A stretch of DNA of 64,000 bases from Lachnospiraceae bacterium (GTDB taxonomy: Bacteria > Bacillota > Clostridia > Lachnospirales > Lachnospiraceae), in assembly GCA_017521605.1 (NCBI GenBank), contig JAFXCD010000045.1, positions 62,001-126,000 on the forward strand, read 5' to 3'. Shown piece after piece: positions 23,738 through 43,849 of this stretch (position 1 is the stretch's first letter; each line of letters opens with the position of its first letter). The position numbers and the translations under genes are program-made. The notes under the pieces were generated by a model. That model was not told the DNA's origin. It was given only the letters and a program-made list of their open reading frames with translations, and made no database searches.

Positions 23738-24997
23738 ATGGTGATTACGAAGGATAGGGTAAAAAGATTTAATTTTGCCAAGAAGCCGAAACGACCGGGA
23801 TTTTTATTGAATGTGGCTAAGGAAATTATCAGTAAGCCGGATTTAAAGAAAAGAGGATTTAAACTGACAAAAACGGATATGGAAACCATACAGGGACCTT
23901 ATTTATTATTGGTTACACATTCTTCCATGGTTGATTTTAATATTATGCTGGTTGCTACGGAACCCAATATGGTAAATAATGTTATGACGCTGGAAGGTTT
24001 TAAGGATTATACGGAGCCTCTGATGCGACATTTAGGAGTATTGGGAACACGTAAGTTTATTCAGGATATTCATCTGGTGAAAAATATAAAGTATTGCATT
24101 GAAGAGCTGGGAACCACCTTTGCCTTGTATCCGGAAGCAAGATATTCTCTGGATGGTTGTACTTCCTATTTGCCGGATTCTTTGGGGAAGATGATTAAAA
24201 TACTGAAGGTTCCGGTGGCAGTACTTCAGATTCATGGTAATTTTGTGACCTGCCCACAATGGAATAAGATAAATAAAAAGACCTATGTGGAGGCAGAACT
24301 GAAAAAAATACTAAGTGGTAATGATGTGAAAGAAATGTCCTATCAGGAAATAAACCGGATAGTAAATGATAATTTCCAATATGATGATTTTAAGTGGCAG
24401 TATGAAAAGCAGATTAAAATAGAACATCCACAAAGAGCGAATGGTCTCCATAGCCTTTTGTATAAATGTGCCTCCTGCAAAGAAGAAGGTCGGATGCATT
24501 CAGAAGGAACAAAGCTTTGGTGCGAAGCATGTAGAAAAGAATGGGAAATGGATGAGTACGGACGCTTAAAAGCTGTAGAAGGGGAAACAGAATTCCCCCA
24601 CATTCCGGATTGGAGTAATTGGGAAAGAGAATGTGTACGTAAAGAAATTCTGGACGGTACGTATTATTTTGAGGATACAGTAAGAGTGGAAACACTTCCC
24701 GGTTCCACCAGATTTTATAAACAAGGTGAGGGTAAATTCATTCAAACGATTACGGAAACCAGATTGGAATGTAATTACTATGGAGAACCTTATACCTTAG
24801 TAAAAAATGCAAAGAGTCTGGAAAGTATGCATATTGAATATGATTATCATAAGCATGGGGATTGTATTGATATTTCCATACCTGATGACAGCTTTTGGTG
24901 TTATATGAGTAAAAGAGATGTGATTACTAAGCTTTCCTTTGCTACAGAAGAAATACATAAGCTGGCAATGGAAAAGACAGATAAGCAGGAGGAATAA
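23738..24997 (+). CDS. PlsC-like acyltransferase with zinc ribbon
   Basis: 419 residues. The N-terminal domain has the acyltransferase motifs HSSMVD (H61, D66) and PEARYS (E133), so it probably transfers an acyl group to a glycerophospholipid or related acceptor. A zinc ribbon follows (C244, C247, C262, C265), then a ~150-residue domain rich in aromatic residues that I do not recognise. No membrane segment is obvious. AAAGGAG at 23725-23731 precedes ATG 23738. The ABC ATPase gene begins one base after its stop, so the two are co-transcribed. Confidence 0.85.
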   Translation: MVITKDRVKRFNFAKKPKRPGFLLNVAKEIISKPDLKKRGFKLTKTDMETIQGPYLLLVTHSSMVDFNIMLVATEPNMVNNVMTLEGFKDYTEPLMRHLGVLGTRKFIQDIHLVKNIKYCIEELGTTFALYPEARYSLDGCTSYLPDSLGKMIKILKVPVAVLQIHGNFVTCPQWNKINKKTYVEAELKKILSGNDVKEMSYQEINRIVNDNFQYDDFKWQYEKQIKIEHPQRANGLHSLLYKCASCKEEGRMHSEGTKLWCEACRKEWEMDEYGRLKAVEGETEFPHIPDWSNWERECVRKEILDGTYYFEDTVRVETLPGSTRFYKQGEGKFIQTITETRLECNYYGEPYTLVKNAKSLESMHIEYDYHKHGDCIDISIPDDSFWCYMSKRDVITKLSFATEEIHKLAMEKTDKQEE

Positions 24998-24998
24998 A

Positions 24999-25703
24999 AT
25001 GGAAGGTTTTGTAACCTTTGAGAACGTAAGTAAAGTATATCAATCGGGTGAATTGCAGATACCGGCATTACATGATGTGAATTTTACTGTTGATGAGGGC
25101 GAGTTTTGCGTGATTGTAGGTGCTTCGGGTGCAGGAAAAACCACGATATTAAATATATTAGGTGGCATGGATACTTTAACAGACGGAGTTGTATATCTGG
25201 ATGGAAAAAGGGTATCTTCCTACAACGATAAACAATTGACAACTTACAGACGTTTTGATGTAGGATTTGTTTTTCAATTTTATAATCTAGTGCAGAATCT
25301 GACAGCTTTGGAAAATGTAGAATTGGCAGCCCAGATTTGTAAGGAGCCCTTGGATGCAGCTACCGTACTACGTGAAGTGGGCCTGGGAGAGCGCATGGCG
25401 AATTTTCCTGCACAGCTTTCCGGTGGTGAACAGCAACGAGTTGCCATAGCAAGAGCATTGGCCAAGAATCCTAAGCTTCTTTTGTGTGATGAGCCTACCG
25501 GAGCTTTGGATTATAATACAGGCAAAGCAGTATTAAAGCTATTGCAGGATACTTGCCGAAAGAAAGGAAAAACAGTAATTGTAATCACCCATAATCAGGC
25601 TATTACAGCTATGGCTGACAGAGTGATTACTGTAAAAAACGGTACCATCCAAAGCATTGTTAAAAATGAACAGGTGATAGATATTGACTTAATTGAATGG
25701 TAG
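24999..25703 (+). CDS. ABC transporter ATP-binding protein, LolD/MacB type
   Basis: 234 residues. Walker A is GASGAGKT at 41-48, the signature LSGGEQQ at 140-146 and Walker B LLLCDEP at 160-166, with the family-typical EPTGALD. This subgroup powers FtsX-type permeases that move lipids, peptides or transmit force rather than translocating a substrate through a channel. ATG 24999 is chosen over an upstream in-frame start inside the acyltransferase gene because AGGAGGA at 24987-24993 precedes it. Its partner permease follows 19 bases downstream. Confidence 0.94.
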
Positions 25704-25722
25704 TACATTTGGGAGTTGTTTT

Positions 25723-28700
25723 ATGAAGTCGATGATGAATAAATCCACTTTGCAGGAAATAAAGCAAAGCTTAGGAAGATATCTGGCCATCCTTGCAATT
25801 GTGGCATTGGGTGTAGGCTTTTTTGCAGGTATAAAAGAAACGAAACCAGCTATGGTTGAAACAGCAGACAGGTATCTGAAGGAAAAGAATTTTTATGATT
25901 ATAGATTGGTCAGTACTTTAGGTTTTGATCAAAAAATAATAGATGAAATCAGTGAAAGAGATGATGTGAGTGTGGTGCAAGGGGCTTATACCTTTGATAT
26001 TCTTTGTCAGAGTGCAGGGGATGGGAATGTACAGGTAGTGAAAGCGCATAGTATCACAAAGGATATTAATGAATTAGAAGTTTTACATGGAAGATTACCC
26101 TCCCAGCCTAATGAATGTGTTGTGGATTCTTCTATGTATTCACACAAATATATAGGTAAGAAGATACGATTGTCTGACAGCAATACAAAAGAGGATTTGG
26201 AACATTTCAGCTATACAGAATATAAAATAGTAGGTGTTGTAGAATCGCCCTTATATATTCAGTTTGAAAGAGGTAATTCTGCTTTGGGAAATGGCAAGGT
26301 AAGCGGATTTGTATATCTGCTTCCTGAAGGATTTCAAAGTGATGCATTTACAGAAGTCTATGTGAAATTGACAGAAAGCTTTTATCTGTATGATGATGCA
26401 TATGATGACTATATAGAAAAGAAGGAACCGGAATGGGAAAGCTATCTTGAAAATCTTGGATTGCTTAGATACAGGAATATTCTTTTGAATGGTGCTGAAA
26501 AGTTGGCAGATGCAGAAAAAGAACTGAAAGAAGGGAAGGAAGAAGGGGAAAAGGAGCTTGCAGACGCCAAACAAATGCTAGATGAGGCAGCTTTGGAAAT
26601 AGAAGATGGTAAGACACAGCTTGCTGATGCCAAGAAGGAAATTGCTAAAGGTTATGAAAAGATTGAAAATGAAGAGAAAAAGCTGGAGAATGCTTTAATA
26701 ACAATTGCGAAGAATGAAAAACTTTTATTAGAAAAGGAAACAGAACTTGAAAAGGGTATAAAGCAATGGGAGGATGGAAAAACAGAGCTTGAAAAAGGAA
26801 GAACAGAATTAGAGCAGGGCGAAAAAATACTTGCTGACCAAGAAAGTCAATTGCTTGTGGGGCAACAACAGCTGGCAGAAAAGGAAGCAGAGTTGATAGC
26901 CGGTGAAGAGCAGTTTACTATCATGGAAAAATTACTAAAGGATTCATTGGTAGAGATTGAGAAACAGGAAGAACAGCTGAATAAACAGGAACAGGATTGG
27001 ATGAATTCCATAGGTGTTGTGCCGGATTATGTTGAAGTAGAAATTGCTTCACAAAGGGAATTTTTGATACGATCCAAAGATACGATTTTATCAAGTCAGG
27101 CTGAATTGGAAAAGAATCGAGTACAACTGGTGGACGGACGTATACAATTGGAATCAGCTAAATCACAAATGGTAAGTGGTAAGCAACAAATAGATGGAGC
27201 CAAGCAAGAGATTGTAAATGGTAAAACCGAGCTGGAATCAGGTGAAAAGGAATTAGCAACTTCATGGGAAACTATAAAGGATGGCAGAAAGCAGATCAGT
27301 GAAGGTCGCAAGGAACTGGTAAAAGCAAGAAATGATATTGAAGAAGGAAAACGACAAATACAGGATGCCAAAGAGGAATTGGCAGATGCAGAAACTCAGC
27401 TGATTGAGAAGGAAAAAGAATTGGTTGAGGGAGAAGAAGAATATGTAGAAGGACTTGCAGAATACAATGATGGTCTTGCGGAATTTGAAAAGGAAATCGC
27501 AGATGCAGAAACAGAAATAGCAAATGCCAAGAAGGAACTGCAGGAATTGGAACTGCCGGAGAATTATCTTCTTGGCAGAGATACCAATGTGGGATATATG
27601 ATGTTTCAAAGTGACAGCAATATTGTAGAAAAAGTATCCACAGTGCTTCCTATCTTTTTCTTCTTAGTGGCAGCATTGGTATGTATGACTACCATGAGTC
27701 GTATGATTGAAGAGCAGAGAACGCAGATTGGTACATTAAAAGCCTTAGGTTATGGAAAAGGTGCTATCATGGGAAAATACATGTTTTATAGTGGTAGCGC
27801 GGCTTTTATTGGATGTGTGAGTGGCTATTTAGTTGGAATAGTGCTTTTTCCTTTTGTTATCTGGATGTGCTATGGATTAATGTATGATATGGGTAGTATC
27901 TGTTTTGTATTTGATTGGAAGCTGGCAATTCTGTCCTTGGCAGTTTCTTTATTATGCTCTGTGGGTACTACCTGGTATTCCTGTCATAAGGAATTAAATG
28001 AGGTGGCAGCACAGCTGATGAGACCTAAGACTCCTCAGGCGGGTAAAAGAATTTTGCTGGAACACATTCCTTTTATTTGGAATCACTTGAAATTTTTACA
28101 GAAGGTTTCCATTCGTAATGTATTCCGCTATAAAAAACGCTTCTTCATGATGGTGCTGGGTATCAGTGGCTGTGCTGCATTAGTATTAGCAGCTTTCGGT
28201 ATTAAGGATTCCATTGCAGATGTTATGACGATGCAATATGAAGAAATACAGATTTATGATATGAGTATTATGCTTCAGGAAGGTTACAATGATACTCAGA
28301 AAAAACAGTTCGAAAACGTATTGGGTACACAAAAGGAAGGACTTTTGCCTGTATGGGAAGGGTCTATGGATATTACAGGAACAGAAGGAACAAAAGCGAT
28401 TACCGTAATAAGTGCAAAGCAAATGGAGCAAATAAATACATTTGTGGATATGCATACATTGGATGGGGAAAGAATTCAGCCTCCGGCTTTCGGGGAAGCA
28501 GTGATTTCTCATAAAATTGCTGAGAATTTAGGAATACAGATTGGAGATATTGTAGAGCTAAAGGATGAGGATTTTAAGACGATTCAGGTGAAAATCAGTG
28601 GTATTATGCAAAATTTTGTATTCAATTACCTGTATCTTCACCCGGATACCTATGAAAAATATATGGGAAATGCACCGGAGTATAATAATATGTATTTAAA

Positions 28701-29220
28701 TGTAATATCGGGAACAGATATGCATGGTTTATCTGCAGCATTAATGAAACTGGATGATGTGACAGCAGTTACTATTAATGAGGTGGAAAGACAGCGATTT
28801 GAGGCTATGATGTCAACTCTTGATTATATTGTTGTATTAGTACTGGGCTGCGCTGCGGCATTGGCATTTATTGTTATTTATAATCTGACCAATATTAATA
28901 TAACGGAACGAGTACGAGAAATTGCAACAATAAAGGTTTTAGGATTCTATAAAAAGGAGACCGCAACCTATGTGTTCCGTGAGAATATATTATTGACTTT
29001 AGTAGGTGCATTGGCAGGTCTTGTATTAGGTAAAGTGTTCCATTATTTTATAATGGAATGTATACAGATTGATATGATTAGTTTTGATGTGAGGATAAAT
29101 GCAGTGAGTTATCTGTATAGTGTTATGCTTACAATGTTGTTTGCAGTTTGCGTAAATAAAATGATGGAAGGTAAATTGGAAAAAATCAGTATGACAGAGT
29201 CTTTGAAGTCTGTTGATTAA
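25723..29220 (+). CDS. FtsX-family ABC permease with large coiled-coil hairpin
   Basis: 1165 residues from ATG 25723 (GGGAG at 25710-25714). After an N-terminal helix (about 20-40) and a MacB-like extracellular domain (to about 240) comes a very long coiled coil (about 255-610) built of heptad-like units such as ELADAKQMLDEA. A break near residue 426 (GVVPDY) lets the two arms fold back as a hairpin. Then come an FtsX three-helix unit (about 640-770), a second extracellular domain (to about 1020) and a second FtsX unit. The coiled coil probably reaches into or through the cell wall. Paired with the ATPase just upstream. Confidence 0.92.
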   Translation: MKSMMNKSTLQEIKQSLGRYLAILAIVALGVGFFAGIKETKPAMVETADRYLKEKNFYDYRLVSTLGFDQKIIDEISERDDVSVVQGAYTFDILCQSAGDGNVQVVKAHSITKDINELEVLHGRLPSQPNECVVDSSMYSHKYIGKKIRLSDSNTKEDLEHFSYTEYKIVGVVESPLYIQFERGNSALGNGKVSGFVYLLPEGFQSDAFTEVYVKLTESFYLYDDAYDDYIEKKEPEWESYLENLGLLRYRNILLNGAEKLADAEKELKEGKEEGEKELADAKQMLDEAALEIEDGKTQLADAKKEIAKGYEKIENEEKKLENALITIAKNEKLLLEKETELEKGIKQWEDGKTELEKGRTELEQGEKILADQESQLLVGQQQLAEKEAELIAGEEQFTIMEKLLKDSLVEIEKQEEQLNKQEQDWMNSIGVVPDYVEVEIASQREFLIRSKDTILSSQAELEKNRVQLVDGRIQLESAKSQMVSGKQQIDGAKQEIVNGKTELESGEKELATSWETIKDGRKQISEGRKELVKARNDIEEGKRQIQDAKEELADAETQLIEKEKELVEGEEEYVEGLAEYNDGLAEFEKEIADAETEIANAKKELQELELPENYLLGRDTNVGYMMFQSDSNIVEKVSTVLPIFFFLVAALVCMTTMSRMIEEQRTQIGTLKALGYGKGAIMGKYMFYSGSAAFIGCVSGYLVGIVLFPFVIWMCYGLMYDMGSICFVFDWKLAILSLAVSLLCSVGTTWYSCHKELNEVAAQLMRPKTPQAGKRILLEHIPFIWNHLKFLQKVSIRNVFRYKKRFFMMVLGISGCAALVLAAFGIKDSIADVMTMQYEEIQIYDMSIMLQEGYNDTQKKQFENVLGTQKEGLLPVWEGSMDITGTEGTKAITVISAKQMEQINTFVDMHTLDGERIQPPAFGEAVISHKIAENLGIQIGDIVELKDEDFKTIQVKISGIMQNFVFNYLYLHPDTYEKYMGNAPEYNNMYLNVISGTDMHGLSAALMKLDDVTAVTINEVERQRFEAMMSTLDYIVVLVLGCAAALAFIVIYNLTNINITERVREIATIKVLGFYKKETATYVFRENILLTLVGALAGLVLGKVFHYFIMECIQIDMISFDVRINAVSYLYSVMLTMLFAVCVNKMMEGKLEKISMTESLKSVD

Positions 29221-29229
29221 TTGTGGGTG

Positions 29230-29901
29230 ATGAATGTGTGGATGATTTTATTGGAAGCAATTGTATTTGTAACAATGTATTATTATTTGTGTATGGATGC
29301 CGACATACATAAATCAAGGATAAAAGAAGCGGTCCAGCCTGTAAACATTTTGGCGGTTATGTTAATTTCGACAGGTATGTGTTTCTTTATAAATTTTCAG
29401 CTTCCCATTGTTATGAATGTATTGCCTGATAGTATAGTAAAAGAATATACCAATATGCTAGAGCAGGCAGGATATGGTGTGGAATGGATTCCTACTATAA
29501 TTTGTCTGTTTCTGGCACCAATAGCAGAGGAATTCTTATTCAGGGGAGTAATATTTTATTATCTTATAAAAATATGTGAAATTAAGCTGTCAAAAAGAAA
29601 AGCATTCTGGATTGCAAATATTATACAAGCCATGCTTTTTGGTTGGTTTCATATGAATCTTATACAGGGGGTATATGCATTTATAATAGGATTGGTACTG
29701 GGATTTCTGGCATATCAGTATAAAAGTGTGACGTCATCCATAATAGCCCATGTGATTAATAATTTCCTTTCTGCCTTTGTTTGGAAATTGGTTGTGGAAG
29801 CATTACCTGTAAGCAATGGTATGTATACTGTTGGTGCAGGATTGGCTCTGTGTGTGGTAGTGCTGGGAATTATGTTATGTATTGTAAATAATGAACAATA
29901 A
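29230..29901 (+). CDS. CPBP family intramembrane metalloprotease
   Basis: 223 residues from ATG 29230, about seven membrane helices. The three CPBP (Abi/CAAX protease) motifs are present: EEFLFRG with E100, E101 and R105, then H141 (FHMNL), and HVINN with H174 and N178. These residues bind zinc and catalyse proteolysis in the membrane. The start is uncertain (TTG 29221, ATG 29230 and ATG 29242 are all in frame), and the only ribosome-like site is GGGTGAT at 29225-29231. It follows the FtsX permease stop closely, so it is the last gene of that operon. Confidence 0.88.
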   Translation: MNVWMILLEAIVFVTMYYYLCMDADIHKSRIKEAVQPVNILAVMLISTGMCFFINFQLPIVMNVLPDSIVKEYTNMLEQAGYGVEWIPTIICLFLAPIAEEFLFRGVIFYYLIKICEIKLSKRKAFWIANIIQAMLFGWFHMNLIQGVYAFIIGLVLGFLAYQYKSVTSSIIAHVINNFLSAFVWKLVVEALPVSNGMYTVGAGLALCVVVLGIMLCIVNNEQ

Positions 29902-29985: not shown

Positions 29986-30037
29986 TACAAGACCTCATCT
30001 TTAGAAATTCTTAAGATGATATATGGAGGGTCTTGTA
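29986..30037 (+). promoter_or_regulatory. Leader hairpin of the lipoprotein/ABC operon
   Basis: In the predicted 5' untranslated RNA, 29986-29994 pairs with 30029-30037 (9 bp) and 29995-30001 pairs with 30013-30019 (7 bp), with a one-sided bulge at 30020-30028. The stem ends 20 bases before the ribosome site AGGGAG (30054-30059). No T run follows. It could stabilise the mRNA or affect initiation. Confidence 0.5.
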
Positions 30038-30067
30038 GTATACTATTTACTATAGGGAGCGATAGAT

Positions 30068-32392
30068 ATGAAGACAAAATTTTGGAAAAGAGTTACCACT
30101 TTTATTGTAACCGGTTTGTTGGCAGTAACCATGGCCGGATGTGGTGGAAAAGAAGAAACCAAAGGACAGGAACAGGCAGGCGAGAGTGTTTCTTCCGGAC
30201 TTAGTGAAGAATATGTTTATGTACCCACCTTTTCACCCTTTGGCAGAACGGATGAGAATGGGTATATTGGGACTACCATTATAAAAGGGGATTATCTGTA
30301 TTTTAGTGAGTCCAAATACGAACCGGAAAGCGGGACCACTTCTTCTCAGATTATGAAGATGGATATAAACAATCCGGATACTATAGAAGCTATGGATATT
30401 CAACCGCCGGAATTAGAAGGTTATCAGTCCAGCTTGAATAGCTTTAATCTGGATGAAGAAGGTAATCTATACATAGTATATCATATGGCACCTCCTTACG
30501 AAGAGGGAGCTGATTATAACTATGAGGATTATACCAGCTATTTGGTGAAGTATGACAGTAACTGCAATAAGGTCTATGAGAGTGATTTGAAGGATATGTT
30601 TGTAGACCAGAATAATTCCTATCTGGGACAATTTGAGATTGGTAAGGATGGGGTAATCTATGCAGCATCTAATAATGTGATTTATGTGATTGGAGCAGAT
30701 GGCACACCTATTAAAAATATCCCTACCCAAAGTGATTGGATTAGTGGATTCCTTCAGACGGAGGATGGTAGGATTTTCTATGGACGCTACAGCAATACCG
30801 GTGCCGGTATGGAGCTTGTGGAGATTGATACTGCTAAATATGCCATTGGAAGCACCTTTAAGAACCTTCCGGATATGAATGGCAGAATCGCGGCCGGTAA
30901 AGATGGAAAGCTTTTTGTTTGCGGAAGCAGCTATTTGTATGAGTATGATTTGGATACCCAGACTGCCACTCCTGTATTGAACTGGCTGGATAGCTATATT
31001 ACTGCCGATTATGTACAAGGTGTTACGCAGCTTGAGGATGGTAATTTCATGCTATATTATAGTGACTGGGAAAAGGATTCTAATGAGCTGGTAACGCTTA
31101 CCAAGACCAAAGCATCAGAGCTTCCGGAGAAGGAAACTATTGTAGTGGCCACCCTATATGGTCAAAACCAGGGAGTAGAACGTGCCATTGTAGATTTTAA
31201 TAAGTCGAATTCCAAATATAAAGTGGTTTATAAACCTTATTATGATCTCAATGCGGAGTGGACGGAGAACCTTTATAACGACACCATTAAGGCTATGAAT
31301 ATGGATTTGGTCAGTGATAATCCTCCGGATATTATAGATTTGTCTTCTATAAATGTATCAACCTTAGCTGATAAAGGGGTATTGGAGGATTTGTATCCCT
31401 ATTTGGAAAAAAGTACCGTCTTAAAGAAAGAGGATTTTGTAACCAGCGTATTGAATGCCTATACCTATAATGATAAACTAGTGACTATACCCAGTAGCTT
31501 TAATATTAATTCATTGATTGCGAAGAAATCTCTGGTAGGAGATGTGGAAAGCTGTACTATTGAAGATTTGATGGCTTTGTCAGCAAAATATCCGGATGCT
31601 GACTTAATGCAGTATGCTACAAAACAGTCCGTATTAAGTGAGTTCCTAATGTATAATACTAAGGCGTTTGTAGATTATCAGGAAGGCACCTGTCACTTTG
31701 ATACACCGGAATTTATAAAGATACTAGAGTTTGCCAATACCTTTGATGAAAATCCTTCCTATGGCGGAGATTATCCGACTCAGATAAGGGAGAATAAAAT
31801 ATTATTGGGAAGCTTGAATATCTTTGATATAGCCTCTTATCAGATGTACACCATGATGATGGAGGAGCCGGTTACCTGTATCGGTTATCCTACCATAGAT
31901 GGAAGCAGAGGGATTTATTTAGTAGGACAGGATATTCATGCCATCACATCTAAGAGTGCACATAAAGAGGGTGCATGGGCATTTATTGAGTATTATCTGT
32001 CTGATTGTCAGGACAGTATGTATGTACATGGGTTATCCACAAAGGCAGATAAGCTTGAAGAACAGTTTAAGGAAGCCATGACACCGGAATATGAGAAAGA
32101 TTTCTCTACAGGTGAGTATAAAAAGGATGAGAATGGTGAACTCATAGAGCGTCCCAAGACTACCTGGGGGTATGATAGCTGGGAGGCAGAAATTTATGCA
32201 GCCACCCAGGAAGAAGTAGATGCGGTAAAGGAATTAATTGCCGCAGCAAAACCTTATGATATGAATGATGAAGAAATCTTTGCAATTATCAACGAGGAAG
32301 TAGCCCCTTACTTTAAAGGACAAAAAAGTGCACAGGATGTGGCAAAGGTAATTCAGAGCAGAGTGTCTATATTTATTAGTGAGAATAGCTAA
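30068..32392 (+). CDS. Lipoprotein: beta-propeller-like domain fused to ABC solute-binding domain
   Basis: 774 residues. A lipoprotein signal ends at C25 (TMAGC). Residues ~45-350 consist of repeated short strands with motifs such as DEEGNLYIVY, GKDGVIYAAS, TEDGRIFYG and GKDGKLFVCG, as in beta-propellers. From about 357 (ETIVVATLYG) the protein is a sugar-type extracellular solute-binding domain, ending in YFKGQKSAQDVAKVIQSRV as many such proteins do. Ordinary solute-binding lipoproteins have about 400-450 residues. It should capture a ligand, probably a glycan, at the outer face of the membrane for the two permeases encoded next. AGGGAG at 30054-30059 precedes ATG 30068. Confidence 0.85.
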   Translation: MKTKFWKRVTTFIVTGLLAVTMAGCGGKEETKGQEQAGESVSSGLSEEYVYVPTFSPFGRTDENGYIGTTIIKGDYLYFSESKYEPESGTTSSQIMKMDINNPDTIEAMDIQPPELEGYQSSLNSFNLDEEGNLYIVYHMAPPYEEGADYNYEDYTSYLVKYDSNCNKVYESDLKDMFVDQNNSYLGQFEIGKDGVIYAASNNVIYVIGADGTPIKNIPTQSDWISGFLQTEDGRIFYGRYSNTGAGMELVEIDTAKYAIGSTFKNLPDMNGRIAAGKDGKLFVCGSSYLYEYDLDTQTATPVLNWLDSYITADYVQGVTQLEDGNFMLYYSDWEKDSNELVTLTKTKASELPEKETIVVATLYGQNQGVERAIVDFNKSNSKYKVVYKPYYDLNAEWTENLYNDTIKAMNMDLVSDNPPDIIDLSSINVSTLADKGVLEDLYPYLEKSTVLKKEDFVTSVLNAYTYNDKLVTIPSSFNINSLIAKKSLVGDVESCTIEDLMALSAKYPDADLMQYATKQSVLSEFLMYNTKAFVDYQEGTCHFDTPEFIKILEFANTFDENPSYGGDYPTQIRENKILLGSLNIFDIASYQMYTMMMEEPVTCIGYPTIDGSRGIYLVGQDIHAITSKSAHKEGAWAFIEYYLSDCQDSMYVHGLSTKADKLEEQFKEAMTPEYEKDFSTGEYKKDENGELIERPKTTWGYDSWEAEIYAATQEEVDAVKELIAAAKPYDMNDEEIFAIINEEVAPYFKGQKSAQDVAKVIQSRVSIFISENS

Positions 32393-32407
32393 GGAGGACG
32401 GAAGGCC

Positions 32408-33319
32408 TTGGAAGAACAAAGAGGCATAACCAAGAAAAAACTCCATAAGAACACAAAACGTAAAAGAAAGTTAAAAAGAAGCTCGGGGCTATTTATAGCT
32501 CCCAGCTTTCTTGGCGTACTATTATTTTTTGTGATTCCTTTTATTGTGGTGATTTTTTATTCGGTAGTGGATAATCCCATCAGTAAAAGTTTTGTGGGAT
32601 TAGATAACTATACCATGGTTTTACAAAATAACGCTTTTAAGAGGGCGGTTACCAATACATTTAAGTTTTCAGTAGTAGCAGTACCGCTGGCAGTGTTGTT
32701 ATCCCTGCTTTTGGCCATAATGCTGGAAGCTAAGCTTCCCTTTAGAAGTCAGTTTAGAACCTTCTTCTTAAGTCCAATGATGGTACCGGTGGCTTCCATT
32801 GTACTGATTTGGCAGGTGTTGTTCAGCTATAACGGTGCAGTAAATGATTTGATGGCACATTTTGGTGTGGAAAAAATTGATTGGTTAAAATCTGAATATT
32901 CCCATGTGGTAATTGTACTCTTATTCCTATGGAAGAATCTGGGCTATAATATGATATTATTTATGGCAGCACTGGCAAGTATCCCAAAGGATATATTGGA
33001 GGTGGCGAGACTGGAGAGTGCCAATGCATTTCAAACCTTTTTTTACATAAAAGTGCGTTACCTTTCCTCCACATTTTTGTTTGTGACTATCATGTCCCTG
33101 ATTAATTCCTTTAAGGTATTCCGAGAGGTATATATGCTGACAACGGATTATCCCTACGATACTATCTATATGTTGCAGCATTTTATGAACAATATGTTTA
33201 ATAAGCTGGATTATCAGAAGCTGTCCAGTGCGGCGGTATTGATGTCCCTGGTGATGGTTGTGATTATAGGAATCCTTTTCCTAACGGAGAAGTATTTCGG
33301 AAAGGATGTGGAAGGATGA
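32408..33319 (+). CDS. ABC transporter permease, MalF/UgpA type
   Basis: 303 residues with six membrane helices. The start is TTG 32408, with GGAGG at 32393-32397 and ten bases spacing. The EAA loop that contacts the ATPase is degenerate: LEVARLESANAFQTFFYIKV instead of EAAxxDGA...LP. It should pair with the next gene product to form the membrane channel of a carbohydrate-uptake type transporter. No ATPase gene is present in the cluster, so a shared multi-sugar ATPase (MsmX type) encoded elsewhere would be needed. Confidence 0.9.
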   Translation: MEEQRGITKKKLHKNTKRKRKLKRSSGLFIAPSFLGVLLFFVIPFIVVIFYSVVDNPISKSFVGLDNYTMVLQNNAFKRAVTNTFKFSVVAVPLAVLLSLLLAIMLEAKLPFRSQFRTFFLSPMMVPVASIVLIWQVLFSYNGAVNDLMAHFGVEKIDWLKSEYSHVVIVLLFLWKNLGYNMILFMAALASIPKDILEVARLESANAFQTFFYIKVRYLSSTFLFVTIMSLINSFKVFREVYMLTTDYPYDTIYMLQHFMNNMFNKLDYQKLSSAAVLMSLVMVVIIGILFLTEKYFGKDVEG

Positions 33320-34266
33320 AAAAGCAAAAGAATCAGACTGCATCCCAATTTGAAAAACGGGCAAAACGTAAAGCTAGGAGAAAGCGCTTTAATCATGGTG
33401 TAAGAATTGTAATAGCCACAGTAGTTGCAGCGTTTTTCGCATTTATGTTTTTGGCACCCATTGTACTGACCATTAGTAATTCCTTTATGTCAGCCAGTGA
33501 AATATCTGCCAATTACGGTACGGTTTTTGCTACCACAGATACAGGTGGTAAGGTATACATAGCAGAAAAGGTAAATTTAAAATTTATACCGGACATGGTT
33601 TCCTTTAGCCAGTACATTACAGTACTTTTTAAGAGTCCGGATTATTTGATAAAATTCTGGAATTCCGTAATATTGGTAGGACCCATTGTGATTTTTCAGC
33701 TAACGGTAGCAGCATTGGCTTCATATGGTTTTGCAAGATACGAAGGAAAACTAAGGCAGATTGTGTTTTTCCTTTATATTATATTAATGCTGATGCCTTA
33801 CCAGGTTACATTGGTACCCAATTATCTGGTGTCTGACTGGTTGAATATACTGGACACTAAATGGTCTATCTGGCTGCCGGGTATTTTCTCGCCTTTTGCC
33901 GTATATTTATTGACCAAGTTTATGCGTCGTATACCCACAGCAGTTATCGAAGCAGCACAGATTGACGGAGCAGGTGAGTGGTCCATATTTCGATTGGTTT
34001 GCCTGCCGCTTTGTAAAGGTGCCATGGCATCTGCGGCAATATTGGTATTTATTGATTATTGGAACATGGTGGAACAACCTTTGATTTTATTATCTGATCC
34101 GGAAACCCATCCACTGTCCGTGTTCTTAAGTAAGATTAACAGTGGAGAAGTGGGATTGGCTTTTGCTGTAGCAACCATTTATATGGTTCCCAGTTTATTG
34201 GTGTTCTTATATGGTGAAGAGTATCTGGTGGATGGTATCACCTATCAGGGCGGTATTAAAGGATAA
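33316..34266 (+). CDS. ABC transporter permease, MalG/UgpE type
   Basis: 316 residues, six membrane helices, with a long basic N-terminus and an extra ~45-residue loop after the first helix (about 60-95). The EAA loop is canonical: IEAAQIDGAGEWSIF...LP (from about residue 212). Its ATG overlaps the stop of the previous permease by four bases, which indicates translational coupling and a heterodimeric channel. The family imports sugars or glycerol-phosphate compounds, and the substrate here is not evident. Confidence 0.92.
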   Translation: MKKQKNQTASQFEKRAKRKARRKRFNHGVRIVIATVVAAFFAFMFLAPIVLTISNSFMSASEISANYGTVFATTDTGGKVYIAEKVNLKFIPDMVSFSQYITVLFKSPDYLIKFWNSVILVGPIVIFQLTVAALASYGFARYEGKLRQIVFFLYIILMLMPYQVTLVPNYLVSDWLNILDTKWSIWLPGIFSPFAVYLLTKFMRRIPTAVIEAAQIDGAGEWSIFRLVCLPLCKGAMASAAILVFIDYWNMVEQPLILLSDPETHPLSVFLSKINSGEVGLAFAVATIYMVPSLLVFLYGEEYLVDGITYQGGIKG

Positions 34267-34332
34267 ACATAAGAAGTGTAATAGTTTGATGAATTTTACC
34301 ATAAGAATAGTTAGGATATAGGAGTGACTAAG

Positions 34333-36006
34333 ATGAACGAAAAAGGAACAAAGAGAAGAGAATGGATTAAAACAATCGCAATTATCTTTCTGGTGATTTT
34401 ACTGATACTGACGTTCTTTTCAAATACCATTATGAATTATTCTCTGCCGGAGGTTGCGGCTCAATACATACAATCGGGGAATATTAATGCACAGATAAGA
34501 GGTTATGGTACAATTGAGAGTGGTGATCCATATACAGTTAAAATCAAGACTGTTCGTAAAGTAGAATCAGTAGAAGTAAGACAAGGAGATAAGGTGGAGA
34601 AAGGACAGGTACTTTGTTTGTTATCCGGTGAGGACAGTACCGAATTAGAAACTGCAAAGGAAGCCTTGAAAGTAGCAGAGGAGGCTTTCGAAATGGCCCT
34701 TTTAACCGGTTCTGTTGACAGTTCTATTATGAATAATGCAGGTAATACAGATTCTATTCAGAATTATAAAGAGAAAATCATATTAGTACAAAATGAACTG
34801 GATACAGTGGAAGCGGAAAAAGACGCAGCAGATTCTAAGGTGAAAGAATGGCAGGACAAAGTGGATGCAATAAGTCTACAGATTTCTGTCACAGCTTCTG
34901 CTGTTGTGGATACCACTAATGAAACAAAAGCGGTGAATGATGCTAAAACAGTAATGGATAATGCAAGTTTTGCATTAACTGAGGCTAAGAATGTGTTGGA
35001 AACAATTGAAGCACAGATTGAACAACAAATGTCTATAAGTAGTGGGGATTCCGTGGCTTTGGAGGAATTAAATCAACAAAAGCTGGGAGCCGGCCAAAAT
35101 GTGATAAATTTAGAGGCAGCATATAAAACGGCAGCATTGAATTATGAAAAAGCTTTGAAAGTTTTGGAGGATAAGAAAGCTACCAATAATGTGGAGGCAA
35201 ATGTTGCCAGTCTGGAAAGACAGAAGGCATTACTGGAAGTAGAATTGAACAATGCAAAGAAGATTGCAATGGAAAAAGAAGCAAATATGACTTCAAAACA
35301 GGCAGAGCTGGATACATTGGTTAAGAATATTTCGGATGAGATTAATCTTGGTAGTCTGTATGATACAGTAACAAAGGCCAAAGCGGAGGTAAAACGATTA
35401 GAAGATATGGTGGAAGGAAGCGAGATAGTGGCTCCCATTAGTGGAACGATTATGACAGTCAATGTTAAATCCGGTCTGGATACACCTGAGGATGGTATTG
35501 TTTTCACCATGCAACCGGAGGGAGAGGGATATACTCTTAGTTTTACGGTAACCAATGAGCAGGCTAAGAAACTGGCTGTAGGAGATGTGGCAGAACCTGT
35601 TAATTCATGGCGCTATGATGATATGCAGATTGTATTAAGCAGCATAAGACCTGATACTACCAATCCGGGGCAGAACAAATTATTAATCTTTAATGTAAGC
35701 GGTGAGGATGTTGTACCTAATCAGTCAGTGAATGTATCTGTAGCACAGCGAAGTGGCGGAATGTATGAAATGGTTGTACCCAACAGTGCTATCAGGGAGG
35801 ATAATAATGGTAAATTTATACTAATTGTGGAAGCTAAGAGTTCTCCCATAGGGACCCGATATATAGCAAATAGAGTGGATGTGGAAGTGGTTGCCAGTGA
35901 TGATACACAATCTGCTATTACCGGAGCACTATATGGTTATGAATTTGTTATTACTACGTCAACAAAGCCTGTAGAAGCAGGACAATATGTGAGAATGCCT
36001 GAATAG
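34333..36006 (+). CDS. HlyD/MacA-like periplasmic adaptor protein
   Basis: 557 residues from ATG 34333, chosen because TAGGAG at 34319-34324 is eight bases upstream (a GTG at 34324 is also in frame). One N-terminal membrane helix (about 17-37) is followed by a lipoyl-like half (GDPYTVKIKTVRKVESVEVR), a long alpha-helical hairpin (about 95-350), the second lipoyl half (GSEIVAPISGTIMTV) and beta-barrel domains. Adaptors of this type join MacB-like or other exporters. Here the neighbour is a truncated MacB-like protein, and both sit inside a solute-uptake operon. Confidence 0.88.
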   Translation: MNEKGTKRREWIKTIAIIFLVILLILTFFSNTIMNYSLPEVAAQYIQSGNINAQIRGYGTIESGDPYTVKIKTVRKVESVEVRQGDKVEKGQVLCLLSGEDSTELETAKEALKVAEEAFEMALLTGSVDSSIMNNAGNTDSIQNYKEKIILVQNELDTVEAEKDAADSKVKEWQDKVDAISLQISVTASAVVDTTNETKAVNDAKTVMDNASFALTEAKNVLETIEAQIEQQMSISSGDSVALEELNQQKLGAGQNVINLEAAYKTAALNYEKALKVLEDKKATNNVEANVASLERQKALLEVELNNAKKIAMEKEANMTSKQAELDTLVKNISDEINLGSLYDTVTKAKAEVKRLEDMVEGSEIVAPISGTIMTVNVKSGLDTPEDGIVFTMQPEGEGYTLSFTVTNEQAKKLAVGDVAEPVNSWRYDDMQIVLSSIRPDTTNPGQNKLLIFNVSGEDVVPNQSVNVSVAQRSGGMYEMVVPNSAIREDNNGKFILIVEAKSSPIGTRYIANRVDVEVVASDDTQSAITGALYGYEFVITTSTKPVEAGQYVRMPE

Positions 36007-36016
36007 GAGATTAGTT

Positions 36017-37117
36017 ATGAATAAGTTGAGAAAAGCTTTCTCGTTTTCAAGATTACTATTTCTCCTGCTTTGTAGTGTTTTCCTAATCATTACATTCATC
36101 CTAAATAATATTGCTTCAGCAATTATTGAGAAGCAGGATACACAGCAGGCCGCAACCCGCTGGAAAAAAGAGGGTGGTGCGGCTCAGATTAGTTGCTTTT
36201 TTTCCGTTAATACAAAACTCACTCCGGAAAGTATAGAAGATTTTGAACATAATCTGGATAGTGCTTTAGAGGCAGCTTCTATTGTGCTAGAATCCCCTCA
36301 TGCAAATGCCAGACTATGGGCAGATGCTTATAGTGCTTCCGGAAAAATTGCTATAAAAAGTAATATTGGTAAAATAGACGTTGATGCAATAGGAATTGGT
36401 GGTGATTTCTTTCTCTTTCATCCCTTGCCACTCTTAAGTGGTTCCTATTTTTCTGGTAATGATATTATGCAGGATTATTGTGTGTTAGATCAGGATGCAG
36501 CATGGAAGCTGTTTGGGTCTAATAATGTGGTGGGACAAACTGTTTACATTGGTGAAGTGGCTCATATCGTAACAGGTGTTGTGAAGCGGGATGAAAGCAA
36601 ACTGTATAAAGCAGCCGGATTAGATAGTGCTTTGATTTATGTGTCCTATTCTACATTGGAGAAGTATGGAAGCAATAATGGAATCAATCATTTTGAAATC
36701 GTTATGCCCAATCCGGTTAAAGGATATGCATATGATTATGTCAAGAAAGCCATCGGAGTAGCGGAAGAAGAACTGGAAATAGTGGAAAACAGTAAGAGGT
36801 TTACTTTTTTTAATCGTATCAAGCACATTGCTAAATTACAAAATCGTGCTATGAATGGAAAAGCCATTATTTATCCTTATTGGGAAAATGTGGCCAGAGT
36901 GACAGAAGATAAACTGGCGAGATTAATGATATTACAGTTGTTATTTACTGCAATATCTGTTATAGTTATCTCAATTAGTTTATTCATACTTTGGAAGAAT
37001 AAAAAGTGTACTGTGAAAAGTGTATTAATTCGATTAAAGGAATGGATGGAATTAAAGATAATAAAGCGAAATCAGCAGAGAATGTATGAGAAGCAGAAAA
37101 AGCAAAGAAAAGCTTAG
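36017..37117 (+). CDS. MacB periplasmic-core-like protein lacking the FtsX helices
   Basis: 366 residues. An N-terminal helix (about 12-32) and a single C-terminal helix (about 300-325) enclose a ~260-residue external domain. That domain carries MacB_PCD signs: LPLLSGSYFSGNDI, CVLDQDAAWKLFGSNNVVGQTVYI and VTGVV. Standard MacB-type permeases have three more helices forming the FtsX unit, but here the protein ends in a short very basic tail. There is no frameshift or nearby remnant, so this looks like a real reduced form. AGGAG at 36005-36009 precedes ATG 36017. It probably works with the adjacent HlyD-like adaptor. Confidence 0.78.
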   Translation: MNKLRKAFSFSRLLFLLLCSVFLIITFILNNIASAIIEKQDTQQAATRWKKEGGAAQISCFFSVNTKLTPESIEDFEHNLDSALEAASIVLESPHANARLWADAYSASGKIAIKSNIGKIDVDAIGIGGDFFLFHPLPLLSGSYFSGNDIMQDYCVLDQDAAWKLFGSNNVVGQTVYIGEVAHIVTGVVKRDESKLYKAAGLDSALIYVSYSTLEKYGSNNGINHFEIVMPNPVKGYAYDYVKKAIGVAEEELEIVENSKRFTFFNRIKHIAKLQNRAMNGKAIIYPYWENVARVTEDKLARLMILQLLFTAISVIVISISLFILWKNKKCTVKSVLIRLKEWMELKIIKRNQQRMYEKQKKQRKA

Positions 37118-37139
37118 TTACTTTGAGGGAGGAAATATT

Positions 37140-39620
37140 ATGAAAAAAATGAAGCGGATTTTAAGTATTTTGATAATAGGGATAATGATTTTATCGCTAT
37201 GTGCCTGTGGCAAAAAGGAAGGTGAAAATATTAATAAGCAAATGAATGAGGCTACGGACCCTTCTTTATCCAAACAGTATGTATTTCATGCAAAGGATTT
37301 AGATTTAGGAATTGATTTCAGTCAGGTAGCAGTTCATGCTACAATGATAAAGAATGATCGTATTTACATGGTGATGGAAGACTATAATTATGTCCTGTTA
37401 CCTGATGAGGCACCTTATGCTTCCAAAGTTGATGGAGCAGAAGAAGATATTGATGTGACAGTAGAGATGCCAGCGCCTGTTGTTACGGCTCCGGATGTGG
37501 CGATAGAAGACGATATTATGATAGAAGATGGAGTTATGCAGCCGATAGGAGGAGAAGTTTATTTTGGACCTAATTATGTGCTGGTATCCGTTAATACAGA
37601 TGGTTCTGACAAAATGCTTAGTAAATTGGAAAAGGATGCCACCATGCATACCGGCTGGATTGGAAGCTGGAGTGTTCTGGATGATGGTTCTGTGATTGGT
37701 ATAAATGAGAACTGGTCGGAGGATTTATCTGACCCTGAGAACCCCATTTATGAGACCAAGTATCTGTTAATGAAATGGGATGATACAGGTGCATTAAAAT
37801 GGAGTGTAGATATCAGTGGTGACAATGGTGAGTATATTTATGCCCAGAAAATCCTTCAGTACAAAGGAAATATTGTGTTGATAACCGGTGATAGCCAGAT
37901 ACTTACCTTTAATAACGATGGAAAAGAACTTTCACGTAAGAAAATAGAAGGCGCTGATATGAATAATGGCGGTCAGGTTATTGTAAGAGAAGATGGTAAG
38001 GCATTGCAGATTACTTATAATAATGAGTATACCAAGATTTTTGTTAGTGAGTTGGATTTGGAAACCTGCCAGATGAAGGATAAGGTGGAACTGCCCGGAA
38101 ATATCACTAATTACGGATTATATCCAGGAAAGAAAACGGACTTTATTTTGAACAATTCTACTGGTATTTATACCTTTAATGTGGGAGATGCCGAGCCGGT
38201 TAAGATTATGGATTTTGTAAATTCAGATTTGGCAACCTATAGTTTGGAAAATATAACATTTATCAATGATAAGGAATTTATCGCAACCTATAATGACGTT
38301 ACGACATGGACTAATCATGTGGCTAGATTTACTTATGTGGATCCGGCGACAATTCAGGATAAGGTTACCTTATTACTTGGCTGCAACTATTTAAGCAGCG
38401 AAATCAGAAAGGATATAATTGATTTCAATAAGACTAACAATCAATATCGAATTACTATAAAAGACTATAGTGTGTATAGTACTCCCGATGATTATATGCA
38501 GTCATATACCCAGATGAATAATGATATAATCAGTGGCAATATGCCGGACATTATGGTTCTGGATTCATCGCAGGATATTACCAGTTGGGTAAACAAGGGA
38601 CTTTTAGTAGATATCGGTGAAATGATTGCCAAGGATGAAGAGTTGTCTAAACTGGAATATCTGGATAATATTTGGAAGGCATTTGCTGTGAATGATAAAC
38701 AGTATATTGTGATTCCCGCATTTACAGTACAGACCATGGTTGCACGTAAGGATTTGGTTGGAAATCGTAATGGTTGGACTATGTCAGAGTTCCAGCAGTT
38801 TATGGCTACACAGCCTGATGATGTAAAGCCGTTTGGAGATGATATTTTACGTGATAATATGATGTATTATATTATGCAATATTGCGGAAGTGATTTTGTG
38901 GATGTAAATACCGGTAAATGTAATTTTGATTCGCCGGAATTTATTGCTATGTTAGAGTTTGCTAATACATTGCCCAAGGAATTTTCAGAGGATTATTGGG
39001 AAAATTATGATTGGATGGCAATGGAATCCATGTATCGTGATAAGAAAGCTGTTATGATGAATGGATATATTTATAATATTCAGAACATGGTTTATAACAT
39101 TCATGGAACCCTTGGGGATGAAGCTAATTTTATAGGATTTCCCGGTATTGAAGGTAATAGTTCAGTAATAATGCCCAGCAACAATATGTTTGCAGTTTCA
39201 GCCAAATCAGCTAATGCGGATGGAGCATGGGAATTTGTCAGGGGGTATTTGACTGAAGAGTACCAAAACAGTGAGCAATTATATGAAATGCCTGTTTTGA
39301 AATCTGCCTTTGTAGAAAAAGCAAAGAAAGCGACAGAAAAACCTTATTATATAGATGAAGTAACAGGTGAAAAAGTAGAATATGATGATTACTATTGGAT
39401 AAATGATGAACAGATTGTTTTAGAGCCATTCAGCCAGAAAGAAGTAGATGATATTTGTAATTTCATTTATGCCTTGAATAAGAGAAGCTATTATAATCAG
39501 AATATCATTAATATTGTTAATGAAGAAGCAGGTAGCTACTTTGAGGGACAAAAGAGTGCAAAAGAAGTGGCGCAGATTATTCAAAGTCGTGTACAGATTT
39601 ATGTGGATGAAAATAGCTAA
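37140..39620 (+). CDS. Second lipoprotein: beta-propeller-like domain fused to ABC solute-binding domain
   Basis: 826 residues from ATG 37140 (GAGGGAGG 37125-37132). An upstream ATG at 37086 is rejected because it lies in the previous gene and would hide the signal. The lipobox LCAC gives C23. Residues ~45-430 form a propeller-like region interrupted by an acidic, proline-containing insert (about 100-140). The solute-binding domain starts near 435 (KVTLLLGCNYL) and ends YFEGQKSAKEVAQIIQSRV, almost the same as in the lipoprotein at 30068. The two are paralogues that bracket the transporter genes and may bind different ligands or form one receptor complex. Confidence 0.85.
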   Translation: MKKMKRILSILIIGIMILSLCACGKKEGENINKQMNEATDPSLSKQYVFHAKDLDLGIDFSQVAVHATMIKNDRIYMVMEDYNYVLLPDEAPYASKVDGAEEDIDVTVEMPAPVVTAPDVAIEDDIMIEDGVMQPIGGEVYFGPNYVLVSVNTDGSDKMLSKLEKDATMHTGWIGSWSVLDDGSVIGINENWSEDLSDPENPIYETKYLLMKWDDTGALKWSVDISGDNGEYIYAQKILQYKGNIVLITGDSQILTFNNDGKELSRKKIEGADMNNGGQVIVREDGKALQITYNNEYTKIFVSELDLETCQMKDKVELPGNITNYGLYPGKKTDFILNNSTGIYTFNVGDAEPVKIMDFVNSDLATYSLENITFINDKEFIATYNDVTTWTNHVARFTYVDPATIQDKVTLLLGCNYLSSEIRKDIIDFNKTNNQYRITIKDYSVYSTPDDYMQSYTQMNNDIISGNMPDIMVLDSSQDITSWVNKGLLVDIGEMIAKDEELSKLEYLDNIWKAFAVNDKQYIVIPAFTVQTMVARKDLVGNRNGWTMSEFQQFMATQPDDVKPFGDDILRDNMMYYIMQYCGSDFVDVNTGKCNFDSPEFIAMLEFANTLPKEFSEDYWENYDWMAMESMYRDKKAVMMNGYIYNIQNMVYNIHGTLGDEANFIGFPGIEGNSSVIMPSNNMFAVSAKSANADGAWEFVRGYLTEEYQNSEQLYEMPVLKSAFVEKAKKATEKPYYIDEVTGEKVEYDDYYWINDEQIVLEPFSQKEVDDICNFIYALNKRSYYNQNIINIVNEEAGSYFEGQKSAKEVAQIIQSRVQIYVDENS

Positions 39621-39634
39621 AATATAGTTGATAC

Positions 39635-39669
39635 AAAGAAAGCAGTTCAATATGACTGCTTTCTTTTTT
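39635..39669 (+). terminator. Rho-independent terminator of the lipoprotein/ABC operon
   Basis: A 12-bp stem (39635-39646 with 39655-39666) with an 8-base loop and a following T run, 14 bases after the stop of the second lipoprotein. It defines the 3' end of the operon. Confidence 0.9.
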
Positions 39670-42611: not shown

Positions 42612-42642
42612 TTGACATTTACGTAACGTTAAGGTTTATAAT
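42612..42642 (+). promoter_or_regulatory. MerR-type promoter with 19-base spacer
   Basis: A perfect -35 TTGACA (42612-42617) and a perfect -10 TATAAT (42637-42642) are separated by 19 bases, the overlong spacer typical of promoters activated by MerR-family proteins through DNA untwisting. The spacer contains overlapping palindromes TTACGTAA and TAACGTTA (about 42619-42631). The gene downstream encodes a MerR-type protein, so autoregulation is likely. Confidence 0.75.
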
Positions 42643-42685
42643 GATGATATTACTTATAAGGACTAGTTTATATGGGGATATTATT

Positions 42686-43849
42686 ATGTCAAAATTATTT
42701 ACGGCAGGTGAATTAGCTAAAATAGCAGGTGTGTCATCAAGAACCATTCGTTTTTATGATGAAAAGGGAATTCTTAAGCCATGTGGTTATAGTGATGGCG
42801 AGTATCGACTTTATGATGAAGAGGCAGTATTACGCTTGCAACAGATTTTAATGTTTAAATACGTAGGTTTTTCTTTGGAAGAGATATCAAGATTAATGAA
42901 TCCTGGTGAAAAAATAGATGTTGGCAGTATGTTGGATAAGCAGAAGAACTTAATGTCTAAAAAGAGGGAACAGATTGATAGAATTATTTATGCATTGGAT
43001 AAGGCGAAGGAAAGCTGTATTAGGAAATCTTTTGACCTGGAGCATTTTTCTGCGATTATGCAATTGATTACCAGAAATGATATGGCAGACAAACGTTATG
43101 GTTTTTATGAAAGATTCAGTACCAGACAGGAAGAATGGTATCAATGGCGATTTGATAATCTGGAATTACAGGAAAATATGTATATTTTAGATGTGGGAGG
43201 CGGGTATGGAACTCCCTGGATGCGTGTATGGGAACAAATTCCTGCAGGATGTACGATTGTAATGTTGGACAAGGATAGTAAAGGCAGAGATTATTTAAAG
43301 AACCACATAAAAGAATATGGTTACAGACTGGCACAAGGAGTTACCTTTACCTTTTGGGATGCAGATGCAGAATTGGTAATATATGAACCGGAGAAATATG
43401 ATAGGATTCTTGCAAATCATTTTTGGGGATATATTGAAGATAAGATTGGATTAATGAAGAAGTTACAGTCAGCATTAAAGCCGGAAGGTAAATTATTTTC
43501 AACCTTACCTTCGACGGTAAACGAAAAAGATGTTGAATGTATTGTTGAGGATTTTCTAAAGAGTCTTGTTAAAATAGGTGTTAATGCAAATAAGCTGTCA
43601 GAACAGGTGTATATCGAACAATGCTTAAAAGAATGTTTTTCAAGTGTGAATTGTAATATTTTCGTGAATGAACTTTGGATAAATGATGAGGAAGCGGTTT
43701 ATGAGTACCTGTGTGATTCCGATAAGGAATTGCAACGATTATTAGAAAAGAAGAAAATTGAGTTTCTGTATCATATAAAGACTCGTTTAATCACGGAAAA
43801 CGTTATAAAAATACGTGTTGATGGACCCATGTATGTATGCGAAAAATAG
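42686..43849 (+). CDS. MerR-type regulator fused to SAM-dependent methyltransferase
   Basis: 387 residues from ATG 42686. The track start at 42641 overlaps the -10 box and cannot be used. The N-terminus is a MerR winged helix (LFTAGELAKIAGVSSRTIRFYDEKGIL) with a dimerisation helix to about 115. From about 145 there is a class I methyltransferase with motif ILDVGGGYGTP (about 163-175) and VMLDKDSKG. The fused domain may sense SAM-related ligands or modify a small toxic molecule whose presence is also sensed. GGGGAT about ten bases upstream acts as ribosome site. It is not followed by an obvious efflux gene. Confidence 0.86.
   Translation: MSKLFTAGELAKIAGVSSRTIRFYDEKGILKPCGYSDGEYRLYDEEAVLRLQQILMFKYVGFSLEEISRLMNPGEKIDVGSMLDKQKNLMSKKREQIDRIIYALDKAKESCIRKSFDLEHFSAIMQLITRNDMADKRYGFYERFSTRQEEWYQWRFDNLELQENMYILDVGGGYGTPWMRVWEQIPAGCTIVMLDKDSKGRDYLKNHIKEYGYRLAQGVTFTFWDADAELVIYEPEKYDRILANHFWGYIEDKIGLMKKLQSALKPEGKLFSTLPSTVNEKDVECIVEDFLKSLVKIGVNANKLSEQVYIEQCLKECFSSVNCNIFVNELWINDEEAVYEYLCDSDKELQRLLEKKKIEFLYHIKTRLITENVIKIRVDGPMYVCEK

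Follow-up and report, generated by a model that had tools for sequence, protein, structure and literature searches.

A candidate type I ABC importer operon with a MacA-like adaptor and a MacB-core protein in Lachnospiraceae

The window analysed here is a stretch of 64,000 nucleotides from the genome of a gut bacterium of the Lachnospiraceae, and it contains an operon in which the genes of a sugar-type ABC importer are joined to genes for a MacA-like adaptor and a MacB periplasmic-core protein. The product of this operon is rather likely to be a type I ABC importer (MalFG/UgpAE-type) in which a MacAB-like envelope module forms stable accessory subunits. The evidence consists of the gene content, the predicted folds, the layout of the operon, the conservation of the set, and the kind of ATPase encoded in seven relatives. 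The repeated occurrence of the pairing among related bacteria, in many of which it is found, suggests a form of importer not described before and not a chance neighbourhood. The central idea of a preliminary description of this DNA, that the uptake and MacAB-like parts belong together, is supported by the co-conservation of the genes and by the match of the lipoprotein N-termini to propellers.

Gene content and predicted architecture of the operon

The operon (positions 30068-39666, + strand) comprises six co-directional genes in the order SBP1-PermA-PermB-MFP-MCD-SBP2, followed by a terminator-like stem (Table 1). The gaps between the genes range from -4 to +57 nt; together with the stem and the order kept in relatives, they agree with the single six-gene operon recognised previously. 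Terminator-like sites in the region are not in excess over shuffled sequences (6 versus a mean of 5.6).

Table 1. Features of the operon (window coordinates)
Feature	Position	Strand	Evidence and remarks
Promoter-like site, 5′ of SBP1	30016..30044	+	Consensus scan, weak (9/12); such sites are common in the region
SBP1, 774 aa lipoprotein; N-terminal beta-propeller and SBP_bac_1	30068..32392	+	Pfam, model, profile
PermA, MalF/UgpA-type permease; TTG start	32408..33319	+	Pfam, NCBIfam
PermB, MalG/UgpE-type permease	33316..34266	+	Pfam, NCBIfam
MFP, MacA/HlyD-like adaptor	34324..36006	+	NCBIfam below cut-off, family profile, alignment
MCD, 366 aa MacB periplasmic-core protein; two membrane helices, without ATPase domain	36017..37117	+	
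SBP2, lipoprotein; N-terminal propeller and SBP_bac_1	37140 (ATG)..39620	+	Pfam 4.4e-15; hhalign versus SBP1
Terminator-like stem-loop closing the operon	39635..39666	+	13 pairs, then a T run

Both permeases contain the Pfam domain BPD_transp_1 (5.9e-12 in PermA, 4.7e-13 in PermB), and their matches to UgpA (2.7e-25) and GlcU (1.2e-25), respectively, lie below the cut-offs. The EAA loop of PermB is canonical (EAA...DGA), and that of PermA is conserved yet degenerate, since ESA replaces DGA and the usual glycine has been lost in the clade of the window. SBP_bac_1 was found by Pfam in both lipoproteins, so that the two importer permeases and two solute-binding lipoproteins described earlier are recovered.

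In SBP1 the propeller spans approximately residues 48-348 and SBP_bac_1 approximately residues 354-774; the lipobox cysteine is residue 25 in SBP1 and SBP2 alike (by eye). Judged by their sequences, the two proteins are clear paralogues: they are 27% identical over 562 residues, and the N-terminus of SBP2 is homologous to that of SBP1 (hhalign 99.9%, E 6.1e-36). The paralogy claimed beforehand thus stands, but the accompanying statement that the C-termini are nearly identical was overstated, as 21 of the 33 last residues are the same (counted by eye).

The model of SBP1 has 24 strands in the propeller domain, that is, six blades by strand count. Most matches of the N-terminal family profile are to propeller proteins (8.6e-19 at best), with top-scoring stretches the length of a single blade, and Pfam Reg_prop was detected in 20 of 36 members of this family at E up to 1; the N-terminal domain of the window's own SBP, taken alone, gave no Pfam match. 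Direct profile matches of the SBP2 N-terminus to propellers are weak (best 1.6e-5), and a fold search with the whole of SBP1 was uninformative on the propeller because its matches were filled by SBP domains. The strand count, the family profile and the SBP1-SBP2 homology support a predicted propeller fold for both N-termini, as had been suggested. The sugar-binding protein CbpC of Clostridium thermocellum (7x0o) is a 420-residue chain, a length that appears to leave no room for a propeller.

With regard to the adaptor, MFP taken as a single protein falls short of the curated cut-offs for HlyD_3 (Pfam) and RND_mfp (NCBIfam; 8.2e-16). The HlyD/MacA-like assignment made at the outset is upheld by the family profile, which matches a membrane fusion protein (5.7e-14), hemolysin D (1e-9) and MacA (1.6e-9) in the PDB; its weaker matches include plain coiled coils. 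The alignment points to an N-terminal membrane helix, a long coiled hairpin, and lipoyl and C-terminal membrane-proximal regions. Near-invariant residues occur in the membrane helix across 27 aligned rows, which suggests a partner in the membrane, and the hairpin has few. The helix motif was tried as a marker of the module and rejected, since its regular expression matches 97 of 113 first-tier rows (several of the misses being rows cut by contig ends) but only 27 of 51 others. The record of Acetatifactor muris DSM 23669 (L016) shows MFP split into two overlapping frames, through either a sequencing error or a broken gene.

MCD matches MacB_PCD (Pfam, 1e-11) and is predicted to have the MacB periplasmic core fold. 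Hydropathy and AlphaFold2 agree on two membrane helices, and helices 3-4 of MacB are lacking. By hydropathy, two helices were counted in 39 of 43 rows of the window's clade versus 1 of 36 outside it, where three to six helices are found in 34 of 36; these counts are known to err at L003 (a buried strand) and at L162 (a split helix). The two-helix form noted before therefore holds for the window, but it is a trait of the window's clade and not of the system.

Conservation within the genus, the family and beyond

MCD or PermB served as the query by which relatives were collected, many of them close kin; one locus (L142) was dropped as a copy of another (L080). MCD is present in 58 of 61 sampled genomes of the genus, the window's own genome included, and the remaining match among the 99 genomes searched was weak, partial and from another family. 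In the family, MCD was detected in 41 of 397 sampled genomes, with identities as low as 29%; these genomes represent 35 of 334 genera. PermB orthologues, defined by an E of 1e-110 or lower, occur in at least 40 of the 397, given that five to six candidates were scored per genome in the PermB searches of the family, class and phylum, so that the counts are lower bounds. Orthologues of both proteins occur together in 39 of the 397 genomes, on one contig in 36 and on two contigs in three (G232, G398, G425). Three further family genomes have one of the two alone, always at a contig end: PermB in G244, whose contig stops 258 nt later, and MCD in G197 and G431, whose contigs begin inside MFP.

Gene order is likewise maintained. 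PermA, PermB and MFP lie upstream of MCD, in the order PermA-PermB-MFP-MCD, in 100 of the 101 loci with at least 4.5 kb upstream (of 117 examined), with three loci showing a gene in two frames; in the sole exception (L141), PermB and MFP are present and a PermA match is absent. By BLAST, an SBP gene follows MCD in 89 of 101 loci and lies upstream in 75 of 90, and the loci without such a match may hold diverged SBPs. A chance neighbourhood or an assembly artefact is ruled out by this order, which recurs across loci. A neighbourhood search in relatives, which the preliminary description suggested as a check, shows the adaptor and MacB-like genes conserved alongside the permeases and, for the most part, alongside the lipoproteins as well.

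Among up to 80 genus loci (the best 80 of 150), the median identity to the window is 76% for PermA, 80% for PermB, 51% for MCD, 45% for MFP, 37% for SBP2 and 35% for SBP1, the permeases being the most conserved of the six proteins. The surface lipoproteins diverge much faster than the translocation core among these loci. Such fast change in the SBPs, the most variable part, is unusual for a fixed single substrate. The possibility that the two-helix MCD is a broken gene was rejected in view of its median identity, a frame of at least 333 aa in 117 loci and a confident AlphaFold2 model; on the other side, one stop inside the match occurs in two genus rows (G004, G054) and four family rows. MCD is single-copy in the window's genome.

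The PermB matches in the family fall into two tiers, one at E up to 1.6e-113 (at least 58% identity) and one at 2.6e-77 or weaker (34-47%), and the class sample fills the gap between them. PermB matches were found in at least 46 of 391 genomes in the class search and at least seven of 348 in the phylum search. The distant comparison covered 59 loci: 30 of the 79 second-tier places in the family, 19 loci outside the family from the class search (covering 20 of the 40 places there), one more family locus from that search, all six places outside the family from the phylum search, and three first-tier loci. In the 51 loci with at least 3.5 kb downstream of PermB, profiles detected MFP in 47 (including L247, at 7e-4) and MCD in 43, and the two occur together in 14 families besides the window's own. 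A reduced adaptor-like protein is found in two of the 51 (L199, L200) and no adaptor in two others (L218, and L190, whose PermB match has an internal stop), both of which also lack MCD. The module is therefore not strictly required, as eight of the 51 loci have no MCD by profile and two of these have no adaptor either.

Adaptor and permease stay together through loss and rearrangement, since the order is MFP-MCD-PermA-PermB in L246, a locus from one of the 14 further families, and L247 has a miniature MFP and no MCD. The L247 adaptor (5771-6136; 122 aa, by eye a membrane helix and the C-terminal region) lies between PermB and an ABC ATPase gene, and it possibly represents the minimal functional part.

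The eight other permease pairs of the window's own genome served as controls, and none has an adaptor or MCD. They were derived from nine other PermB-like places, the ninth sharing its region with the first; in one control the contig ends after 1.8 kb of downstream sequence, and for control L228 the adaptor profile gives a weak match (E 0.01) at a distance of 1.9 kb. A quick tree was built from 100 permease pairs, a chosen subset with long branches among the controls; in it, the 92 module-type pairs are separated from the eight controls by a branch with SH-aLRT 99, and the window falls inside a 47-row clade with support 100.

Several observations concern individual distant loci. In L250 and L251, from a family (f130) that shares only the phylum with the window, PermB is 65-68% identical to that of the window and is accompanied by PermA, MFP, MCD, a propeller-sized SBP and an ATPase; horizontal transfer of this set is possible. 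Upstream of the module, two loci outside the class carry S11 D-alanyl-D-alanine carboxypeptidase genes (L252, 10918-11985; L253, 4238-5212), and a two-component pair with a D-alanine-ligase-like gene was seen by eye near the module in a third (L254, 11069-14188). No recurrent glycan-degrading gene or regulator was noticed next door in an unsystematic viewing of the loci. In the window itself, a MerR-type regulator joined to a methyltransferase domain is encoded at 42641-43849.

Energy source and competing explanations

As the preliminary description held, no ATPase is encoded within the operon. According to PMC7658222, shared ATPases are ordinary in sugar importers of this kind, so this absence is not strange in itself. 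The end of MCD is overlapped by a UgpC/MalK-type ATPase gene in L236; each of L250-L255 has an ATPase gene of similar size behind MCD (after approximately 280 nt in L255). The MalK OB domain (OB_MalK) scored above cut-off in all six that were scanned of these seven ATPases, and the UgpC subfamily cut-off was passed by all four given to NCBIfam; in the ABC ATPase of L247, the OB domain was not detected. The genome of the window has, on another contig, one gene above the OB_MalK cut-off that also passes the UgpC subfamily cut-off, and a second, weaker OB_MalK match elsewhere. The UgpC-type gene has three of the four residues tested for multitask ATPases in PMC7658222 (with Q at 110), if MsmX numbering carries over. 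Because a MalK-type gene follows MCD in seven relatives, the window's system is most likely driven by a shared UgpC/MsmK-type ATPase encoded elsewhere in the genome.

A MacB-type ATPase was found neither in the operon nor at a fixed place in the gene order. Other ABC ATPase genes lie within some kb in eight of the 37 family loci (L141, L145, L153, L157, L168, L169, L172, L175), at no fixed place. Upstream of the operon, a separate unit at 24939-29901 encodes an ABC ATPase, an FtsX/MacB_PCD permease of 1175 aa, whose coiled insert is very long, and a protein resembling CAAX proteases. The ATPase of the ABC-FtsX pair (24939-29220) was rejected as the energy source, since a relative of the FtsX protein occurs in no more than 21 of the 80 best genus loci, which were drawn from 150 and of which many are short; none occurs among the 37 family loci L141-L177 as listed.

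These observations bear on the idea of a MacAB-type efflux pump for which a MacB-type ATPase would be borrowed in trans, the SBP and permease genes of the operon being passengers. The resemblance of MFP and MCD to MacA and MacB, the ABC ATPase and FtsX-type permease just upstream, and the ATPase genes near eight family loci speak for such a pump. Against these stand the sparse distribution of the upstream FtsX relative, the lack of MacB helices 3-4 in MCD, and the MalK type of the ATPases found behind MCD; moreover, a separate MacAB-type trio on contig C104 of the same genome includes a MacB-type ATPase of its own, a contrast to the operon. An efflux pump is accordingly given a very small probability, the smallest of the readings considered. 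It is scarcely less improbable that the set is a sensory or signalling assembly, in which the SBPs sense a ligand and the MacB-like protein relays the signal across the membrane without transport. Large extracellular domains of the MacB/FtsX type are sensors in Bce-type systems, and MCD has no ATPase domain, both of which would suit this alternative; yet the permeases are the most conserved part and keep their EAA loops, and seven relatives have UgpC/MalK-type ATPase genes after MCD. The sensory option, already raised in the preliminary description, gained no support.

Two co-regulated units, namely an ordinary sugar importer and an ATPase-less MFP-MCD pair with a separate job such as wall anchoring or lipoprotein handling, form an unlikely explanation, though one with more in its favour than the two above. 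Distant permeases that lack a detected MCD, and in two loci the adaptor as well, are what separate units might leave. Nevertheless, the adjacency survives at 36-49% permease identity, in the 14 further families, through the L246 rearrangement and down to the 122 aa adaptor of L247, and the only other MCD match in the window's genome is short (44% over 43 residues) and lies in the separate MacAB-type trio.

Proposed mechanism and relation to known systems

In the favoured importer with accessory subunits, the two surface lipoproteins would capture a ligand, most likely an oligosaccharide, by the solute-binding domain that stands behind the predicted six-bladed propeller, and PermA/PermB would translocate it. 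A shared UgpC/MsmK-type ATPase from elsewhere in the genome would couple to the EAA loops of the permeases and so power them. The MacA-like adaptor, anchored by its conserved membrane helix, would sit on the permease and form with the MacB-core protein a stalk or collar through the wall zone, which would keep the long lipoproteins near the permease or guide the ligand there. As the adaptor stays behind PermB where MCD was not found (L247, L200, L195), and in view of the order in L246, contact between adaptor and permease is most likely, with MCD in a supporting role for the adaptor. We infer a single physical complex, an inward direction and the stalk role from these data; sugar as the ligand is suggested by family resemblance, and glycan capture and uptake are plausible. 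Several of the observations above weigh against the model: MCD is optional in distant loci, the EAA loop of PermA lacks its usual glycine, the UgpC-type gene has three of the four multitask residues, other ABC ATPase genes lie near some family loci, no glycan-degrading gene or regulator was noticed to recur nearby, and the SBPs diverge fast.

The operon resembles MsmEFG/MsmK, AraNPQ/MsmX, UgpABEC and MalEFGK2 in its SBP lipoproteins and its two BPD_transp_1 permeases with EAA loops. It also resembles the shared-ATPase importers treated in PMC7658222 in having no ATPase of its own and a UgpC-subfamily gene elsewhere. Unlike type I sugar importers, it adds a MacA-like adaptor, a MacB-core protein and two double-size propeller SBPs. 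According to PMC5768738, the Spr0693-0694-0695 pump of Streptococcus pneumoniae (5xu1) includes a MacB-like ATPase, and each of its permeases has four helices; the operon has neither feature. Compared with Spr0693-0695 and YknWXYZ, it carries importer permeases and SBPs. It was grouped with type I importers because the MacAB-family ATPase and the four-helix feature are absent. In PMC5768738, Spr0693 is described as a hexameric tube whose modelled height the authors compare with the inner wall zone. A tube or stalk of this kind could hold the propeller-bearing lipoproteins over the permease. The more specific proposal, that an adaptor tube and a MacB-core collar work inward and channel the ligand from the propeller lipoproteins to a MalFG-type permease with a MalK-type ATPase, is tentative and rather doubtful as a whole. 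Full-text searches of a library of published, largely open-access papers listed no description of such a system.

The set extends far beyond a single operon, with looser relatives in further genomes beyond the genus and family counts. Export is the setting in which MacA/HlyD-type adaptors and MacB-core proteins are familiar. Here, parts of the export type are tied to importer permeases over deep distances, which would change what such parts can do and would add a new type of importer to those of monoderm gut bacteria. It would also explain gene clusters that annotation would split into 'sugar ABC transporter' and 'efflux adaptor'. In addition, the relatives form a natural series, with the adaptor ranging from 122 to 762 aa and the helices of the MacB-like protein from approximately six to two, which lets the function of each piece be tested.
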